Shown here in pieces: positions 41,934-52,824 of a DNA stretch of 64,000 bases; positions within the stretch are counted from its first letter, which is position 1, and each line of letters begins with the position of its first letter. The notes under the pieces are model-generated. The model was not told the origin of the DNA. It saw only the letters and a list, made by a program, of their open reading frames with translations, and did no database searches. A program made the position numbers and the translations under genes. Source of the stretch: Roseibium alexandrii DFL-11 (lineage in GTDB: Bacteria > Pseudomonadota > Alphaproteobacteria > Rhizobiales > Stappiaceae); NCBI RefSeq assembly GCF_000158095.2, contig NZ_CM011002.1, forward strand, positions 549,541 through 613,540. The letters run 5' to 3'.

Positions 41934-43277
41934 TCAGGCGCTTAGGTGACGGACGTCATCGAAGAACCGGGTGATGTCGGACGCAATCGTCTCTGCGCCC
42001 GCTTCCATGTCCCGTGCTTTGGACACAAAGGCGCGGGCCGTTTCGTCCGATGCCGTGATGGCCTGCTGGACCCCCTGGATATTGCCGGCGAGTACGGATG
42101 CCCCACTGGCAACGGTCTGCACGCTTGCAGAGATTTCACCAGTCGCTGCGCCCTGTTCCTCAACCGCGGCGGCAATGGACGCGGTAACCTCATCGAGCTC
42201 CCGCACGACGGTCGCGATTGTTTCAATGGATCCGACCGCGCTTGTGGTTGCCGCCTGGATCTCGCCAATCTGCTGACTGATTTCCTCGGTCGCGCGAGAC
42301 GTTTGGGTTGACAGCTCCTTCACCTCGGCCGCGACTACGGCAAATCCCTTTCCTGCTTCCCCCGCGCGGGCCGCTTCGATTGTGGCGTTGAGGGCCAGCA
42401 GGTTCGTTTGTTCGGCAATCGCCTGAATCAGGCCGATCACATCGCCGATTTTCTGCGCACCACCTGCAAGGCCCTGAACATCCGTCGTGGTTGTTTCGGC
42501 GCTCATCCGGGCCCGGTTTGCGATCCCGGACGCACCGGAAATCTGTTTGGATATCTCCAGGATCGAGGCTGACAACTCTTCGGTTGCGGACGCCACGGTT
42601 TGAACATTGACCTGCGATTCTTCTGAAATGCTCGTGGCCGTGTCGGTTTCCGATCTGGCGGCTCCGGATACCTTAATCAGCTCGCCGGCATCCGTGGCCA
42701 TGGTGCGGGCCCCGGAGCGTATGCCGTCGAGCGGCACCGCGATGATCTCTTCAAACCGGGCGATGGCAGAGTTGAGCGCCCGTGTCTTGTCGGCCTGCTC
42801 TTCCATCAGCACCGCCTGATAGGTCGACACGGCCATGTCCAGATCGAACATGGCCGCCGTGGTGACATGAGACAGCGCCCTTGCAAGTTTGCCCGGCGAA
42901 AACCGCAGTTTTCGGATCAAGGCCTCTTGCAGGTGGACCAGGACGAATTTGTAACCCGCGATATACCATTTCGGCTCCAGTCCGATGCGGCTGTGAACAC
43001 GGCCAATCCGGTTGATGCTGTCGACATAATCCTCGTCAAACCCTTGCAGGAACAGCTTTCTCCAATGCGTTTTCTGGGCGTTCTCCAGGCGTGGCTGTTG
43101 CGTGCCCACCATGTCTGCCATCTCAGGATGCTGGCGCAGATGGGTGTAAAATGCCGCCAGGATGCCGTCGATATCCTTCTCGATCACGGGCCAGATCGCA
43201 CGCAACCCCTCAACGACCCCGCCATCGATCTCCGCGAACTGCAATCTTTCCCGAATAGACGCTGACGCATGCGACAT
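41934..43277 (-). CDS. Globin-coupled chemoreceptor (HemAT-like)
   Basis: A 447-residue soluble chemoreceptor. The first ~175 residues form a protoglobin sensor: the proximal His is His95 in [19 protein letters not shown], the family's haem-ligand segment. Then a short linker and the signalling domain with the tip [22 protein letters not shown]. No membrane helix, so it is cytoplasmic. Such proteins sense O2 through haem and drive aerotaxis. It is divergent from the GGDEF-EAL gene at 43592, across a 314-bp gap. Confidence 0.92.
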
Positions 43278-43591: not shown

Positions 43592-45853
43592 ATGCAACCA
43601 AACGCCACCAAATTTGCCCCTCGGGACGCGGACCCTGGTCCTGAGACCACACGCCGTTGGCACATGGATGCGCTCAAGGACATAGATGTGCTTAAGGGCG
43701 GTGGGACTTCCCATGATGAGATCCACCAACTCTTGGCCGCGATTGCCTATCATGAGGCCGGGCAACGCAGCACCAGCATCCGCTTGTTCCTGCGGGACGG
43801 GGGCACGGGGTGTTTTTTCCTGTGTGCCCACCACGCCGCTCTTTCGGATGACACACCGCCCTCAGTGCGTTCGCGCTTTCCAGACGGTTTTTCAGCCGCA
43901 GACCTTTCGAACGGCAAGACACTTCTCGGGTCCTTCCAGACCCGCTTCGACGAATCACTGGAAGAGCGCGAGGTTCCCCGGTCTTCCTGCTGCGTTCCGA
44001 TCCTTTCTGATCGGAGTGTTCTTGGCGCGTTGGTGTTTTGCTGTGATACCGGACAGGACTATCGGGGCGTCGACTTTTCGGTTCCAGAAGCACTCGGACA
44101 TCTTATCGGGCTTCACATTTCGTCCAAAAATCCTCACGGCAAGGCCGGGGATGCGCCGGGTCAGGCGCCATCCTTGGATCGTTGGCAAGACCAATTGTTG
44201 TCCCTGATCGAAGACCAGACCATTTACAGCCGGACGGATCGCGCCGGCCGCATCCTGGATGCCAATGACGCGCTTGTTGCGCTCAGCGGGTACAGCCGGG
44301 TGGAGTTGGTCGGGTCCCCCCACAGTCTTTTGAATTCCGGTCATCATCCGCCAGAGTTCTGGCATGCGTTCTGGCAACAGATTTCTTCCGGGCAGACCTG
44401 GCGGGGTGAAATCTGCAATCGCACGAAAACCGGTGACCTTTATTGGTTGGACAGTATCGTCGCACCGCTTAAGGGCGCGGATGGGCGCATTGAAAACTAC
44501 ATTTCGGTCCGCTTCGATATCACGGAGCGCAAACGGGCCGAGGCGCGCATTCACCAGCTGGCCTATTTCGACACGCTCACCGGGCTTGCCAATCGGGACG
44601 GCACACTCGCTCACATTCGATCGTGCCTGTGCGGTCCGGGCGGTGAGGACAGGATATTCGCGCTGTTTTACATCGATCTCGATCATTTCAAGGCCGTCAA
44701 CGACAAGCGGGGCCACGCCACGGGGGACCGTGTCCTTGCGATTGCAGCGCAGCGCCTTCAGTCGGTGTGCCCAACAGACGTGTTTCTTGGCCGGCTAGGC
44801 GGCGACGAGTTTGCGGCATTTTGTCCAGTCAAAACAAAACAAGAGGCCCAGGCCGTTTCGGATTTGTTTCAAGCGGCGCTGTTGGAGCCGATCGATGTCT
44901 CCGGCGAGCAATTTGCCCTGGGCCTGAGTGTCGGGATCGCGCTTGCCCCCTATCATGCGCGCGAGGCGGATGCTCTGCTGAGCCGGGCAGACATGGCCAT
45001 GTACCAGGCCAAGGCGACCGGGGCGGGTTCGGTGTTTTACACCCAAAGCCTTGCTGATGCTCTGCATCGGCGCCAGCGTGTTTCAGACCGGTTCAAACTT
45101 GCGCTGGAGGCCGGCCTGTTTCACCTGGTGTTTCAGCCTCAGGTCCATCTTGAGGATGGCAGTTTCGAAGGGTGCGAGGTCTTGATCCGGTGGCGTGACG
45201 AAGAGCTGGGCGCCGTCCCGCCGTCAGAATTCATCCCGATTGCCGAAGAACTGGGTCTGATAACCAAGCTTGGGGAATGGGTGCTCGCACAGACTTGCCG
45301 GCATATGAGTGACTGGGCCGCCAGAGGTCTGTCTGTACCCGGGCGTGTCGCGATCAATATCTCGGCGCAGGAGCTGATGTCGTCCGGGTATGTTGCAAAC
45401 CTCAAAGAGACCGTTGCATCGTTTGGTTGTGACCCAAATGCTTTTGAACTGGAAATTACCGAACATGGGCTGATGCGGGATATTTGGGCCGGCAAGGAGA
45501 CCCTCAACGAACTGGAAGATCTCGGGTTTCGGATTGCGATCGATGACTTTGGCACAGGGTATTCGTCCCTGTCTTACGTGAAGCATTTTTCGGCCGACGA
45601 ACTCAAGATCGACCTGTCGTTCGTCCGGGACATGATGGTCGACGCGGCCAGCTATGCGATCGTGGCGGCAACGATTGCCATGGCCGAAAAACTGGGCATG
45701 CAGAGCGTTGCAGAAGGGGTGGAAACCAAGGAGCAGGCCGATGCACTTAAGGCCATGAAGTGTCCCATCGCGCAGGGGTATTACTATTCGCGGCCACTTG
45801 AGGCCCAAGATTTTGAAGACACCTGGCTGATCCCGGCCAAGGGGACCACCTGA
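43592..45853 (+). CDS. GAF/PAS-GGDEF-EAL hybrid protein (EVL variant)
   Basis: A 753-residue soluble c-di-GMP enzyme. Residues 40-175 look like a GAF domain. PAS is at about 205-315 (ILDANDALVALSGYSRVELVG). The GGDEF domain has an intact GGDEF at 403-407 but no RxxD inhibitory site (CPTD in its place, with shifted spacing). The EAL domain starts near 500; its signature is E529-V-L rather than EAL. The other catalytic blocks are present: NISAQEL, ELEITEHG, DDFGTGYSS, a KIDLSFV Lys, and AEGVET. The first Glu and metal ligands are kept, so hydrolase activity is plausible. AGAGGCGG precedes the ATG. Confidence 0.88.
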   Translation: MQPNATKFAPRDADPGPETTRRWHMDALKDIDVLKGGGTSHDEIHQLLAAIAYHEAGQRSTSIRLFLRDGGTGCFFLCAHHAALSDDTPPSVRSRFPDGFSAADLSNGKTLLGSFQTRFDESLEEREVPRSSCCVPILSDRSVLGALVFCCDTGQDYRGVDFSVPEALGHLIGLHISSKNPHGKAGDAPGQAPSLDRWQDQLLSLIEDQTIYSRTDRAGRILDANDALVALSGYSRVELVGSPHSLLNSGHHPPEFWHAFWQQISSGQTWRGEICNRTKTGDLYWLDSIVAPLKGADGRIENYISVRFDITERKRAEARIHQLAYFDTLTGLANRDGTLAHIRSCLCGPGGEDRIFALFYIDLDHFKAVNDKRGHATGDRVLAIAAQRLQSVCPTDVFLGRLGGDEFAAFCPVKTKQEAQAVSDLFQAALLEPIDVSGEQFALGLSVGIALAPYHAREADALLSRADMAMYQAKATGAGSVFYTQSLADALHRRQRVSDRFKLALEAGLFHLVFQPQVHLEDGSFEGCEVLIRWRDEELGAVPPSEFIPIAEELGLITKLGEWVLAQTCRHMSDWAARGLSVPGRVAINISAQELMSSGYVANLKETVASFGCDPNAFELEITEHGLMRDIWAGKETLNELEDLGFRIAIDDFGTGYSSLSYVKHFSADELKIDLSFVRDMMVDAASYAIVAATIAMAEKLGMQSVAEGVETKEQADALKAMKCPIAQGYYYSRPLEAQDFEDTWLIPAKGTT

Positions 45854-46051: not shown

Positions 46052-47161
46052 ATGCGGTTTGACCTTGCGGACGAAGTCTGGATGACCGCGCTGGATGCAG
46101 CGCAGATCTGCATCACGATCGCCGATGCCAAGACACCCGGACGCCCTCTCGTTTATGTCAATCCCGCGTTTTTAAGGCAAACCGGCTATTCCCTTGAGGA
46201 AGCGGTTGGCCGCAACTGCGGTTTTCTCCAGGGGCCGGACACCGATCCGCACACGGTGTTTCAGCTTCGGGAAAGCCTTGAGGCCGAGATGGCCATCTGT
46301 GTGGAGGTGTTGAACTACAAGAAGGACGGAACACCGTTTTGGAACGCGCTGTCCATCAGCCCGATCAAGACCGCCACTGGGGATCTGGTTGCTTTCGTCG
46401 GTTTTCAAACCGATGTGACCGATCGACGGGCCGCGTCTTTGGAAGAACAACACTCGGAGAAAATGGCGGCGCTTGGGCGGTTTGCCGGCGGGATCGCCCA
46501 TCAGGTCAACAGCGCGTTGCAGCCGGTTGTAAGTCTTCCGGCGCTAATCGCCCCCTCTCTTCCGATGGACAAAACAGAGGAACGGGACTGGCTCGAGTTG
46601 ATCGAGACGAGCGGGAAAGCTGCCCGGACCCTTCTGAAATCAGTTCTGGCGTTTTCCCGTGGCCGGGAATTTCGGGACGCAAAGCTGTTTCATCCAAACG
46701 AGGTGTTTGATCTTGCGTTGCGGCATCTAAGAATCGCGGCGCCGCCGGGCGTGCGCATAACCTCCAGTCACCGCGTCCGGGGCACTTTGGCGCTTTGTGG
46801 CGATCCGGTGGCGTTGACCAACGCGCTTGTTGAACTTGGGCAGAATGCACTGGATGCGCTGGACGGGGCAGGGGAGGTCCGCCTCAGTCTTGAGGAGGTC
46901 GGGAATCGGGTCGAGATCTGCGTGCAGGACACGGGGCCAGGTCTGGATGCGCGTACTCGATCGCGGCTGTTTGAGCCCTTTTACACGACAAAACCGATCG
47001 GTCAGGGCACCGGTCTCGGATTGGCACTTGTGCACAGCACGGTCGAGGCCTTTTCCGGATCGATCGCCGTTGAGACCCGGTCCGGCACCGGAACCCGTTT
47101 TGTGATCACGCTGCCCGTTGAACCCTTCCTAGTTCCCGTTTCAGCGGCCGCAACCGTGTAG
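46052..47161 (+). CDS. LOV-domain histidine kinase (blue-light sensor)
   Basis: 369 residues, soluble. The LOV domain (about 15-125) has GRNC56GFLQGPDTDP, the photoactive flavin-cysteine motif, with conserved Asn88 and Asn98 and the flavin-contacting Gln119 in FVGFQTDVTD. The dimerisation/phosphoacceptor helix holds His150 (FAGGIAHQVNSAL), and the ATPase domain has the N box ELGQNALDAL, DTGPG and GTGLGLAL. All elements for light-triggered autophosphorylation are present. AGGGAA precedes the ATG. Its stop codon is followed closely by the receiver gene (14 bp to that ATG), so HK, receiver and chemoreceptor form an operon. Confidence 0.93.
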   Translation: MRFDLADEVWMTALDAAQICITIADAKTPGRPLVYVNPAFLRQTGYSLEEAVGRNCGFLQGPDTDPHTVFQLRESLEAEMAICVEVLNYKKDGTPFWNALSISPIKTATGDLVAFVGFQTDVTDRRAASLEEQHSEKMAALGRFAGGIAHQVNSALQPVVSLPALIAPSLPMDKTEERDWLELIETSGKAARTLLKSVLAFSRGREFRDAKLFHPNEVFDLALRHLRIAAPPGVRITSSHRVRGTLALCGDPVALTNALVELGQNALDALDGAGEVRLSLEEVGNRVEICVQDTGPGLDARTRSRLFEPFYTTKPIGQGTGLGLALVHSTVEAFSGSIAVETRSGTGTRFVITLPVEPFLVPVSAAATV

Positions 47162-47175
47162 TGGAGACCCTGGTC

Positions 47176-47556
47176 ATGGCGCATATTCTTGTTGTTGATG
47201 ATGTCGAAGGCGTGCGGAGATCAATTGCGGCCGGCTTAAAACGCGCCGGCCATACGGTCGACGAAGCCGACTCTGGCGTTTCGGCGCTCTCAACGCTCAG
47301 ATCCGTCAAACCGGATCTTGTTATCACGGATATGCTGATGCCCGAAATGGACGGTCTCGATCTCATCGACGAGATCAAGTCCGGTTCCGCGGGGCCCTAT
47401 CCGGTTCTTGCCATCTCCGGGGGCGGCAGTTTTGTGTCGACGGGCGATGCGCTCAAAGTTGCCGAGACGACCGCTGACGGAATTCTCGAAAAACCTTTTG
47501 ACAGCACCGAACTTGACGCCGCCGTGCGCGCACTTCTCGGCGAGGTTCAAAAATGA
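47176..47556 (+). CDS. Single-domain response regulator (receiver)
   Basis: A 126-residue stand-alone receiver: acidic pair Asp8/Asp9 (ILVVDDVE), phosphoacceptor Asp52 in [13 protein letters not shown], a Ser/Thr switch in LAISGGGS, and Lys in EKPF. No output domain, so it works through protein contact, CheY-like. GGAG nine bases upstream fixes ATG 47176. It overlaps the next gene by four bases (ATGA). The likely partner is the LOV kinase just upstream. Confidence 0.92.
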
Positions 47557-49793
47557 CACTGCACAGCCTGTCTATCAGTTGGAAGGTCGGCCTTGGCTTG
47601 TCCGTTCTTGTCTTGGCCCTGGTTGGACTTGCTGCGAAAGCGACCCTGACACTTTCCAAGATAGATGCAAATTTCAGCTATTATCAGCGTGCGGCGGCAG
47701 AGGCTGAGCGGGCGGTTGATCTGAAAGCGGCAACGCAGGCGTTTGTCGGTTCAGCCAAAGAGTATATCGCCCGCAACACGGAGGCGCGATACCAGTCCGC
47801 TCAGGAGCGTTTTGAAACCGTCCATGGCAAACTCGATGCAGCTCTTGAGGTGGCGCATGGGGATTTTGAAACTGCCGCACTTGCGGCCCAGTCCCTGCTG
47901 GGCCCCACCCGGCAAAGCTTCAGTGAGTTTGCTGTTTTCAGAAATGACCGGAACGATCTCACCGAAACTGCGCTCCCAGCACTTGCCGACCGGTTTGAAT
48001 CCCTGCTGGCGGGTTTCGCAGATCAAGGACATCAAGGCGCAGACGCTGCCCTGCTCCATCTGATGCGGGCGAAGTTTCACACCTACAGGTACCTGACGCG
48101 CTACGACGGGGCACAGCTTGATGCCGCCGCCAAGGCCGTCGCTGACCTGGAAGATGCCTTGCAGGACCTGCCCGACAGCCCGGATCGCAGCTCCGCACTT
48201 GGCATGACTGCGGAGTTCTCGGACGCCCTCGGACACCTGACCCGAACCGTTGAGAAGGAGGCAACGGCTTCCGCCGCATTTTTTGATCAGGGCGTGCGGC
48301 CCTTGCTCGCCTCAGCGGAACGTATGGCCGACATCGCGCATGGTTATGAGCAGGAGGTTGCGACGCGGATTGCTGCGGAAAAACAGAGTGCCTTGTGGAC
48401 CGTCAGCCTGGTGGTGGGCCTCGCTCTGCTGCTTGCGGGCGCTGTGACCGTTTGGCTTCGCCGTACAGTGTCGCAGCCCATCAAGCGCATGACCGACCTC
48501 ATGGGAAAAATCGCCGCCGAGGAGCCGGATGTAGAGATCCCTGGAACATTGCGCCAGGACGAGATCGGTGCCATGGCGCGGGCCTTGGAAGTGTTCGACA
48601 AGGCCGGCCGGGACCGACGTGCCCTTCAGGAGGAACAGGCGCATACACGCGCGGAGGCACGAAAGCGCCAGGACGAAATCGATCAGCTGGTGGCGATGTT
48701 CGGAAAAACCGTTCAACATGTCCTCGGTCAATTGCGCAATGCCTTTGATGGCATGGGCAAAAGTTCGACCAGCCTGGTGGCGTCAGCCGATGACAACGTG
48801 GACAATGCCGGCCGGGTCGCCTCAAGTGTTGACCGCACCGCAGACAACACCCGCGGGGCCGCAGCAGCCACCCAAGAACTTTCCTCTTCCATTGAAGAGA
48901 TCAGCTCCCAAATCTCCAAGGCCCGCGACATGGCTGACAATGCCGCGGGCGTTGCCGCGGAAGTGGGAGATCGGGTTGGCGATCTTGGCGGAGCGATCGA
49001 CCGGATTTCTTCCGTGGTGGACTCAATCCGGGCGATCTCGGAACAAACCAATCTTCTGGCCCTCAATGCAACCATCGAGGCTGCGCGCGCGGGCGAGGCG
49101 GGCAAGGGATTTGCGGTCGTCGCTTCTGAAGTCAAACAACTTGCCAGCCAGACCACGCTCGCCACGGAGGAGGTGGCGGAGGCTGTCGCCCTGGTGCGCC
49201 ACTCCAGCCACGAGGCCGTGTCGGCCACCGACCAGATCAAAGCCGCGGTTAATGCCCTGAATGAGGTGTCGCAATCCGTGGCCGCAGCAACCACGGAACA
49301 GCAGGCCGCGACCGAGGAAATCGCGCGCGCCGTTCAAATGGTCAGTCATGAAACCGATACGATCCAGGAAGATATGAAAGCGGTTTTCGGAACAGGCCAA
49401 TCCACGCGCAGCGTCGCTGGCGACGTGCGCATGGCCGCCGAACGCCTGGTCGCGGACACCAACGAGTTTTCTGACGAAGTGGTCCTTTTTCTCGATGGGT
49501 TGGGTCAGAATACGGTGCGCGAGAAAATCGAGCGCAGATCCCTGCGTGTCGATGCGAGACTGACCGCCGACGGCCAAACCCAGCCTGCCGTGATTGAGAC
49601 AATGTCGCCTGCCTCGCTGGAACTGTGCGTTCAGACACCTCCGTCCCCGGCGACCAAGCTGGAGCTCGATATCCCGGGACTGGGTTATGTCCGGGGCCGG
49701 GTTGCCGATGTTCAGGGCAACCGGGTCTTTGTGCAGCTGCCGCTCGATCGCGAGAGTGTGGAACGCACCGCAAGATATCTGAAAGTCGCTTAG
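47553..49793 (+). CDS. Chemoreceptor with C-terminal PilZ-like tail
   Basis: A 746-residue membrane chemoreceptor: helix 1 (about residues 10-28), helical periplasmic domain (about 30-275), helix 2 (about 280-302), HAMP, and a signalling domain with the tip [22 protein letters not shown]. Behind it is an unusual ~90-residue extension that looks like a PilZ domain. Its RRSLR (661-665) fits the RxxxR motif, but the second motif, normally [D/N]xSxxG, reads TMSPAS, so c-di-GMP binding is doubtful. It overlaps the receiver gene by four bases, so it is coupled to the LOV kinase operon. Confidence 0.82.
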
Positions 49794-50011: not shown

Positions 50012-52824
50012 GTGTCTGCGAAAAACGGAACGCGAAACGGGATTGAGGCGACGGCCCGTCAGATCTTGGGGCTGGCAGATGTTTTTCAATGGCGGTCGAA
50101 TGCACAGCACTATCTGACCAACGCCGAGCCGGACGCTTCCAAAGATGACCGGGCCTTGATCACCACTCACTGGGTCGGCAAACAGCTGTGGGATCTTCCG
50201 GTGACTTTGGATCAGCAACAGCAGCTGCGCAAGCGCCTTGCCATCCACAAACCGTTGGAACGGATGCGCTTTCGTGTTCGGCATGCGGGCCAAGAGCTGG
50301 TCGACATCGATCTGAGCGGTTTGCCCGTGTTTGCGCCCTCGGGCGCGTTTCAAGGCTATGAGGGTGTCTGGCAAGTGGCCCATCGGAGACTTGTCTCCGA
50401 GATGGAAACCCGCCGGATCAAGGGGCTGGAACTTGCCGTCAACAAGCCGATTATCGTCACGGACCGCTCGGGATTGATCGAATGGGTCAGTCCTGCCTTC
50501 ACGACGCTGACGGGCTATGCTCTTGAGGAGGTTGTCGGCAAAACACCTGGGTCTTTCTTGCAGTGTGCGGAAACAGATCCCGAAACCGTCCTTGAAATCG
50601 GAACGGCTGTACGGGCGGGACAGCCGATCCGCAGGCAAATCCTCAATCAGCGCAAGACGGGCGAGCAGTACTGGTTCGATGTCAGCATTCAGCCGATCGC
50701 CGGCGCAGACGGTGCATGCGAGGGGTTTGTCGCCGTTCAACCAGACGTCACAGATCTTGTTCGTGCCCGGGAACAGTTTCGCGATCTTCTGGTCAACCTT
50801 CCCGCCGGCGTGATCCACACCGATGAAACGGGTCTCGTGGTCGATTGCAATCTCGAGGCGTGCCGGATCCTCAACAAGACCCGAGAGGCTCTTTTGTCGC
50901 GGTCCCTGACAGATGCGATCGTCCGCCTTTTCAATCGTGACGGATCTGCTCTCCACTCTTGCCAGAACCCTGCTCTTCGCATCCTTGAGAACGGGGACCG
51001 GATTGAAAATGAAGTCTTCGGGATCGGCTTCGCCGATGGTCAAAAGAAATTCATTCGCGTCAGCTCAGCGCCGACCTGGAATGTATTGGAGCAGCGTCAG
51101 GAACACGTTTTCAGTTTCATTGATGTGACCCAAGACGAGGAGGGACGGCAACGGCTTGAGCAAACCACGGATCTTCTGCATGAGGTTGTCGAGACCATCC
51201 CGGATGCCCTTGCAGCCTTTGATGCAGACGACCGCCTGATCCTTTTCAATGAAAACTACCTCAAGACGTATCAGGCCTCTGCCCCGGCCATAAAGCTGGG
51301 GGCACAGTTTGAGGATATTCTTCGCTACGGGCTGGAGCACGGGCAATACGGGGAGGTGGGCGATCATCCCGAAGACAAGACCGCTTGGCTCTCCCGGCGT
51401 CTTGCAGCTCACACGGCGAAGACACCCCCCAAAGCCCTTCAAAAACTGGGAAATGACAGGTGGCTTCAGATCCGCGAACGCCGCAGCGCCTCGGGGACCG
51501 TGGTGGGTGTGCGTACGGACATTACGAGCTTGAAGCGGGCCGAAGAAAACGCACATATTGCCGCACGTACGGATTCACTCACGGGCCTTTCAAACCGTAG
51601 GGTCCTTCTTAACGTGCTGGAGGCGCGCGCGCGGCAAAAGGATCGCTGCTGTGCGCTGTTTCTGATCGATCTCGATCACTTCAAGCTCGTGAACGACACT
51701 TACGGTCACGAGGCGGGTGACGCCTTGTTGTGTGCCACCGCCGAACGCCTCCGACAGCTGGCCGGGCCAGAGGATCTTTGCGTGCGTCTTGGCGGCGATG
51801 AGTTTGCCCTGTTCGTGGCCTCTATCGAACCGGCGCAGGATCTCCCGGACATTGCCAGCAGGATCATGTCCAGTCTCAATCGTCCCGTCGAGCTCTGTGG
51901 ACGAACTTATCGGCCTGTGCAGTCGATCGGCGGCACCCTCATTGAAACAGAGCCGTTGGATGCCGACGCGATCGTTAGGCATGCGGATGCTGCGCTATAT
52001 GCTGCAAAACAGGCTGGCGGTGGGGTCTTTCGTCTTTTTGATTCTGACATCGGGCAGAAGCAAGATCGCTTCAACACCCTTGCCCAGGCGTTGAAAAGTG
52101 CGGTGTATCTGACCAGATCGACGTCGTGTTTCAGCCACAGGTCGATGTTGTCACGGGCGGAATAAGCGGGTTTGAGGCCCTTGCCCGCTGGACACTAAAC
52201 AGAACGGCGATCCCCCCCTTTGAATTCGTGCAGATTGCCGAGGATACCGGTCTGGGGGAGGCCCTCGGCACAGCGATCATGACCAAAGTTCTTCATCTCG
52301 CCCGGCGCTTTTTGTTGCCGCCGGGGTCCGGAGTGACCATTGCGCTCAATCTGGCGACATCACAGCTCAGATCGGCGCGTTTCTTCGAGCGTTTGATCCT
52401 GTCGCTTGAGGCAAATGGCGTTTCGCCTAGCTCTCTGGAGCTGGAAATTCCGGAAACGGTGTTGCTCGATCGACATCAAGGCGAGATCCTCAACAACTTG
52501 CGGAAGGCCCGGAGCTTGGGCATTGGCGTGGCTCTCGATGATTTCGGTACCGGGTTCGCCTCGCTGAGCCATGTTACCGAACTTCCCCTGACGGGATTGA
52601 AACTTGACAAGTCCTTCGTGCGGCGGATGAAGCGGGACCGTGGGTCCGCCGTGATTGCCGGGTCGATCATCGCAATGGCAAAGGGACTGGACCTCAGTTG
52701 CGTGGCCGAGGGGGTCGAGACTGAAGACGAACTGCACTTCCTCAAAGATCTTGGATGCACTCTTGTCCAAGGGTATTACACCGGCCGGCCTGTTCCAGCC
52801 GCTGTGGCCGCAGACCTTCTTTAA
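50012..52824 (+). pseudogene. PAS-GGDEF-EAL gene split by a frameshift near 52105
   Basis: One open frame (50012-52165, GTG start with AAGGATGAGA) encodes PAS domains, one LOV-like (TGYALEEVVGKTPGSFLQCA) but with no photoactive Cys, then a GGDEF domain with intact GGDEF at 594-598 and no RxxD site. A second frame (52126-52824), shifted by two, supplies a complete EAL domain: GFEALARW, ALNLATSQL, LELEIPETV, DDFGTGFAS, KLDKSFV, AEGVETED, QGYYTGRP. Reading the second frame upstream gives SDQIDVVFQPQVD, the usual GGDEF-EAL junction. So a one-base loss, or a two-base gain, near 52103-52110 (GCGGTGTATCTGACC) breaks a single gene. No ribosome site precedes the EAL part. It may be a true pseudogene, a programmed or sequencing frameshift, or a GGDEF-only functional remnant. 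Confidence 0.8.

Follow-up and report, generated by a model that had tools for sequence, protein, structure and literature searches.

Chemoreceptors that end in a PilZ domain have been known for some time, and an earlier count quoted in PMC6454048 gives 52 among 20,681 chemoreceptors. Tlp1 and Aer of Azospirillum brasilense belong to this group; the PilZ domain of Tlp1 binds cyclic di-GMP (c-di-GMP), and Aer is described as keeping two adjacent conserved arginines (PMC6406031). Cbp1 of Azorhizobium caulinodans has the same C-terminal domain, and changing the first arginine of the RxxxR motif abolished c-di-GMP binding in both Tlp1 and Cbp1 (PMC6454048). PilZ can also serve as a protein-binding module, as in MapZ-CheR1 (PMC12564702). 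LOV kinases influence swarming in Pseudomonas (PMC4844311), and in Caulobacter crescentus the LOV histidine kinase LovK is encoded with the single-domain receiver LovR (PMC5964349). A locus of Roseibium alexandrii DFL-11 brings together a LOV histidine kinase, a receiver and a chemoreceptor with a PilZ-fold tail. It lies in the window analysed here, a stretch of 64,000 nucleotides (NZ_CM011002.1, positions 549,541 to 613,540), and positions below are counted from the first letter of that window.

Inspection of the sequence confirms the three genes, which lie close together on the forward strand. They encode a LOV histidine kinase of 369 residues (46052..47161), a single-domain receiver of 126 residues counted from its ATG (47176..47556) and a transmembrane chemoreceptor of the methyl-accepting chemotaxis protein (MCP) type of 746 residues (47553..49793). 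A gap of 14 bp separates kinase and receiver, and receiver and receptor overlap by 4 bp, in agreement with the original prediction; an alternative GTG start of the receiver at 47161 would add five residues. The association of the trio is more than chance, because the same three genes recur together. These data suggest a recurrent unit in some marine bacteria through which light, not c-di-GMP, may feed cell steering. In the preferred reading, to which we assign a probability of roughly 45%, the trio would be a light-to-taxis module whose kinase, receiver and receptor feed a light signal into chemotaxis via the tail.

All 17 receptors of the trio class whose neighbourhood was read, including that of the window, adjoin a LOV kinase and a receiver; this count excludes two further members known as proteins, P0002 and P0023. 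The 17 comprise 15 loci in 14 of the 45 genomes of the genus and two genomes of other orders. In ten genomes of the genus, the own genome included, a first search for relatives (61 genomes) found the LOV kinase beside a full-length receptor, with the receiver between them in each. The genus-wide search with the tail profile, which scored all candidates, returned the 15 receptor loci plus two weak matches in short frames, and four of these loci, one of them in G787, were new relative to the first search and proved to be trios too; locus L261 is the same as L072 of the kinase scan. Roseibium denhamense, one of the ten genomes, carries two divergent trios about 30 kb apart (L058 and L059), and therefore the module exists as two types. 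The best matches of the tail-only class search outside the own genome were G384 and G160, which belong to other orders sampled by 4 and 1 genomes. In G160 (L192) a PAS-LOV kinase, a receiver and a receptor stand in a row; in G384 (L191), a 91%-complete draft, receiver and receptor share a strand and the LOV kinase is convergent on the opposite one.

The comparators are 18 PilZ-tailed receptors, made up of 16 loci and two ORFs (open reading frames) of the own genome (L149 and L151). Around the 16 comparator receptors whose neighbourhood was read (4-8.5 kb, one cut by a contig end), neither a receiver match nor a full kinase match was found, and the only tblastn kinase matches were PAS-length ones of 27% identity in L235 and L236. 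The LOV text pattern was too narrow, missing the GRSC variant of L229, and tblastn is the better control. The context of L149 and L151 was left uncounted because only about 1.5 kb on each side was covered, and the upstream side of L237 was not covered because the contig end cuts the locus. The own genome holds at least two other PilZ-tailed chemoreceptors with normal motifs, one of them with an ammonium transporter domain. In this latter, L151 (G000:C1, near 2592168), an ammonium transporter, HAMP, MCP signalling and PilZ occupy one frame, a possible transporter-chemoreceptor fusion.

The wider searches used profiles A5 and A6, built from tails of the trio class. Of the 44 non-own matches that the class search listed across 385 genomes, 7 had their neighbourhood read; for the order search (397 genomes) it was 14 of 35, leaving aside the own locus and G010, already known; for the phylum search (398 genomes), with its 11 non-own matches, it was none. 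Each of these searches scored no more than 11-12 candidates per genome, and the tallies are lower bounds. Searched with the window's receptor, a collection of 5.8 billion proteins showed the tail only in that receptor and in P0002. The same search with the receptor of the second Roseibium type returned 21 proteins, and all rows that name an organism are Roseibium or Labrenzia except Kiloniella sp. b19, whose protein (P0023) found only itself. The gene pairing sought in other genomes is present there, and since it recurs beyond this genome, the light-to-taxis link proposed by the original prediction may reasonably be inferred.

At the deep level the trees of kinase and receptor show the same branching, though modestly supported. 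The receptor tree takes in 14 of the 17 trios and 16 of the 18 comparators (L194 and L151 were dropped because the hairpin pattern missed them) and places the trio class together with P0002 and P0023 on one side of a branch (91/89). The kinase tree, built from 14 trios and 17 outgroups from 80 loci, 8 of the outgroups being without the LOV pattern, shows the same deep order: the kinases of the window, L058 and L229 fall together; L192 follows, then L191 with the second Roseibium type. Its inner branches have bootstrap values of 80-92 and SH-aLRT values of 60-84. The whole trio-kinase group, L083 included, is supported at 100/97, and the LOV kinase of L083 groups with the window-type trio kinases (85/75). 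L083 (5380-9281, Roseomonas genomospecies 6 ATCC 49961) is arranged as a tail-less chemoreceptor, a CheY-like receiver, the LOV kinase and a second receiver, after which come ORFs resembling, by eye, STAS and RsbW-type proteins. Identity to the window's receiver is 50% for the receiver of L192 and 60% for that of L229, against at most 40% for paralogues from the own genome.

The chemoreceptor has hydrophobic segments near residues 12-30 and 284-302. Its periplasmic sensor (residues 49-265, 47697..48347) has a predicted fold that may be that of the McpS helical-bimodular (HBM) domain, with HBM matches at E<=1. It is followed by a HAMP domain matched in Pfam (residues 301-347, 48453..48593) and by an MCPsignal match that includes the hairpin tip (residues 456-605, 48918..49367). 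The tail (residues 656-746, 49518..49790) is modelled as a six-stranded barrel with a C-terminal helix. Pfam PilZ gives no match to the window's receptor or tail at E<=1, NCBIfam finds no PilZ in the isolated tail, the tails of L229, L191, L192 and L060 give no Pfam PilZ match at E<=0.01, and only one of 20 aligned receptors scores (E=0.021), while the comparator tails exceed the Pfam cut-off in 18 of 18 cases. However, the window's tail is recovered at E=7e-18 from a set of 16 by a profile built on 18 PilZ-tailed ORFs, in a match that includes the preceding helix. The tail profile in turn also retrieves PilZ proteins, and all seven tested among the 44 non-own matches listed pass Pfam PilZ; against PDB sequences, hmmsearch with this profile gave a single weak match, 2kjp (E=0.7). 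By predicted fold and profile homology, the tail is a PilZ domain (PF07238), though missed by Pfam. A plain Pfam search alone would seem to refute the PilZ-like tail of the original prediction, which nevertheless stands on fold and homology; the profile search suggested with it returned a PAS match in the kinase and no Pfam PilZ match in the tail.

The same prediction read an RxxxR motif at residues 661-665, with possible c-di-GMP input. The letters RRSLR do occur there, but two sequence alignments place the PilZ motif at 657-661, four residues earlier, so that its first arginine aligns with Glu657 (codon 49521..49523) and its second with Arg661; residues 662-665 lie in strand 1 of the predicted models. 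The structure ranges of VCA0042 would put its RxxxR at 657/661 with 2rde and 3kyg, and one residue off with 1yln, a comparison of ranges only that was not counted. Input of c-di-GMP through an RxxxR at 661-665 was rejected, the motif being out of register. At the first-arginine column, Glu or Asp is found in all 16 aligned tails of the trio class (14 trio members, P0002 and P0023) and Arg in all 18 comparators. The strict (D/N)xSxxG motif is present in none of the 14 trio tails versus 15 of the 18 comparators, L238, L240 and L241 being the comparators without it. At this site the window's protein has T683-M-S685-P-A-S688, and it retains R656, R661 and S685. In the second Roseibium type the three arginine positions are occupied by Asp, Glu and Ile. 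L260-L262, which joined the set once the 14-row motif table was complete, show DDETYR at this site. L232 (N runs) and L242 (C-terminus of MCP-matching ORFs not PilZ) were excluded from the motif counts, and Fisher tests on the motif columns, which ignore shared descent, are not used as proof. As judged from these alignments, the canonical c-di-GMP site is lost across the trio receptor class, because the first arginine is acidic and the strict (D/N)xSxxG is missing, and c-di-GMP input to these receptors appears unlikely, although the window's protein, with R656 and R661 kept, might retain some residual binding. A PilZ-fold tail should not be taken as c-di-GMP input before the motif register is checked.

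The kinase combines a LOV domain (residues ~8-126, 46073..46429) with a phosphoacceptor and HATPase_c region (residues 136-357, 46457..47122). Among the 60 PDB matches listed, LOV proteins are the majority and the LOV-FixL fusion 4gcz is the best (E=1e-44). The PAS and HATPase_c (E=9e-24) matches exceed the Pfam cut-offs; HisKA stays below its own (15.1 of 26.9 bits), despite which His150 and the N-box Asn265 are both present. The photocycle residues named in the original prediction, Cys56, Asn88, Asn98 and Gln119, joined to a histidine kinase, were all confirmed, and they are kept in all 14 trio kinases compared, the window's included. The residue following the LOV cysteine (GxNCRFLQ position) is Arg in 12 of the 14; Gly57 replaces it only in the window and in L058, whose kinase is a near-identical orthologue. 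The phosphoacceptor motif (46499-46504) reads H-Q in the window type and the second Roseibium type, and H-E in L229, L191 and L192. The receiver, CheY-like as first described, matches Response_reg (E=7e-23) over 9-123 of 131 residues, counted from the long start; it has Asp8, Asp9, the presumed phospho-acceptor Asp52, Ser81 and Lys106, and no output domain.

In the proposed module, blue light would act on the LOV kinase, which, judging from domains and gene order, would phosphorylate or dephosphorylate the receiver at Asp52. The phosphorylated receiver, or else the kinase, would most likely dock on the PilZ-fold tail. Docking might shift the signalling state of the receptor, so that an external ligand, perceived by the periplasmic sensor, and light would be reported together to CheA, for which the own genome has one CheA-type domain match. 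The tail lost the usual c-di-GMP site and probably became a protein docking site, and its partner is most plausibly the phosphorylated receiver. A full swap of the PilZ ligand, in which the charge-reversed site docks the phosphorylated receiver and the two-component system writes the light signal directly onto the chemoreceptor, is put forward more tentatively. Several observations weigh against the module. The branches on which the trees agree are modestly supported (bootstrap 80-92, Shimodaira-Hasegawa-like approximate likelihood ratio test, SH-aLRT, 60-89); the branch leading to L191 is long in both trees; and the receiver tree resolves poorly and leaves the order unsettled. At just 37-38% identity, the receiver of L191 is no closer to the window's than the own-genome paralogues are, and the L083 kinase sits inside the same kinase clade yet adjoins a different chemoreceptor. 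The module is patchy, the tail being absent from 31 of the 45 genus genomes, and G160 is rated 10% contaminated. The window's Gly57 stands in place of an arginine that contacts the flavin phosphate. Finally, docking of the receiver on the tail is argued from association alone, and the receiver may have another target.

Such a target is central to a less likely alternative, in which the receiver itself is the light output, as a CheY-like motor ligand, phosphate sink or hub, and the receptor is merely co-transcribed, its tail serving another partner. The lack of an output domain fits this, as does Caulobacter LovK-LovR, where the single-domain receiver acts as phosphate sink (PMC5964349), but it leaves unexplained why this receptor subclass pairs with kinase and receiver when none of the 16 comparators read does so, and why the trio persists in another arrangement in L191. 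The tail might instead still sense c-di-GMP, so that, like Tlp1 and Cbp1, the receptor integrates it with a ligand from outside while the LOV kinase tunes something nearby. The predicted PilZ fold, the retained R656, R661 and S685, and genes with GGDEF/EAL motifs (by eye) flanking the trio in the window and in R. denhamense speak for this. Yet Glu657 replaces the very arginine whose mutation abolished binding in Tlp1 and Cbp1 (PMC6454048), the strict (D/N)xSxxG is lost, the second Roseibium type lacks all three arginines, and the flanking genes reach at most 28% tblastn identity in second-type loci outside the LOV region; the idea is held to be quite unlikely.

A tail that tethers adaptation or array proteins such as CheR, which is bound by the PilZ protein MapZ, with no link to light, would leave the pairing with a LOV kinase and receiver without reason and is given a slim chance. 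Equally improbable is a kinase that in the window's strain has ceased to be a good photoreceptor and instead responds to redox state or is constitutively active; R57G, confined among the 14 trio kinases to the window and its near-identical orthologue, would suit it, but the four photocycle residues are conserved in 14 of 14. The set bears on two questions, the coupling of light to swimming in marine bacteria that are not phototrophic and the cross-talk between two-component systems and chemoreceptors; being compact and conserved, with a PilZ tail that lost its usual motif, it makes both testable with three genes. Should the docking of a protein on the tail be true, it would illustrate how a domain for a second messenger can turn into one that binds protein.

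Around the window-type trio, genes of GGDEF/EAL type (by eye) lie at 43592-45853 and 50012-52824 of the window and at 7337-9061 of L229. The gene at 50012-52824 is of PAS-GGDEF-EAL type, with its EAL part in another reading frame (break near 52126-52165); its R. denhamense counterpart (L058) has the EAL part in frame and the N-terminal part split. Its PAS domain is LOV-like but without the cysteine (GKTPGSFLQ). About 2.8 kb from the trio, a chemoreceptor signalling domain with a globin-sensor-like N-terminus (by eye) is encoded on the reverse strand (41934-43277). Elsewhere in the genome, a short ORF (G000:C1:677311-677637, 130 residues, one TAG within the match) is 42% identical to the LOV domain and possibly encodes a short LOV protein.

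A literature search by title and start of abstract, with subscription journals mostly uncovered, found no description of a LOV kinase with a PilZ-tailed chemoreceptor. Within that scope no publication was found on the combination, on how conserved it is or on the charge-reversed tail; PilZ-tailed chemoreceptors as such (Tlp1, Aer, Cbp1) and LOV kinase-receiver pairs are already known. The aligned sensor of the McpS-type chemoreceptors of Pseudomonas is 9% identical to that of the window's receptor, and McpS is, to our knowledge, without a PilZ tail. The window's kinase falls far under the NCBI BluLightHisKinLov cut-off (135 of 450 bits). Compared with Aer, the second of the aligned arginine pair is Glu in the window's receptor and (D/N)xSxxG is absent; the available text on Tlp1 and Aer mentions no LOV kinase or receiver partner (PMC6406031). 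Cbp1, unlike the window's receptor, is soluble, has RxxxR and D/NxSxxG intact and binds c-di-GMP with a dissociation constant of 14.94 uM (PMC6454048). LovK-LovR differs in acting in attachment and the general stress response (PMC5964349). That a PilZ protein can interfere with two-component phosphotransfer has been seen with HapZ-SagS of Pseudomonas aeruginosa (PMC10333796); there, HapZ is a separate c-di-GMP-binding protein that inhibits transfer, whereas here the PilZ domain would be the fixed tail of the receptor.

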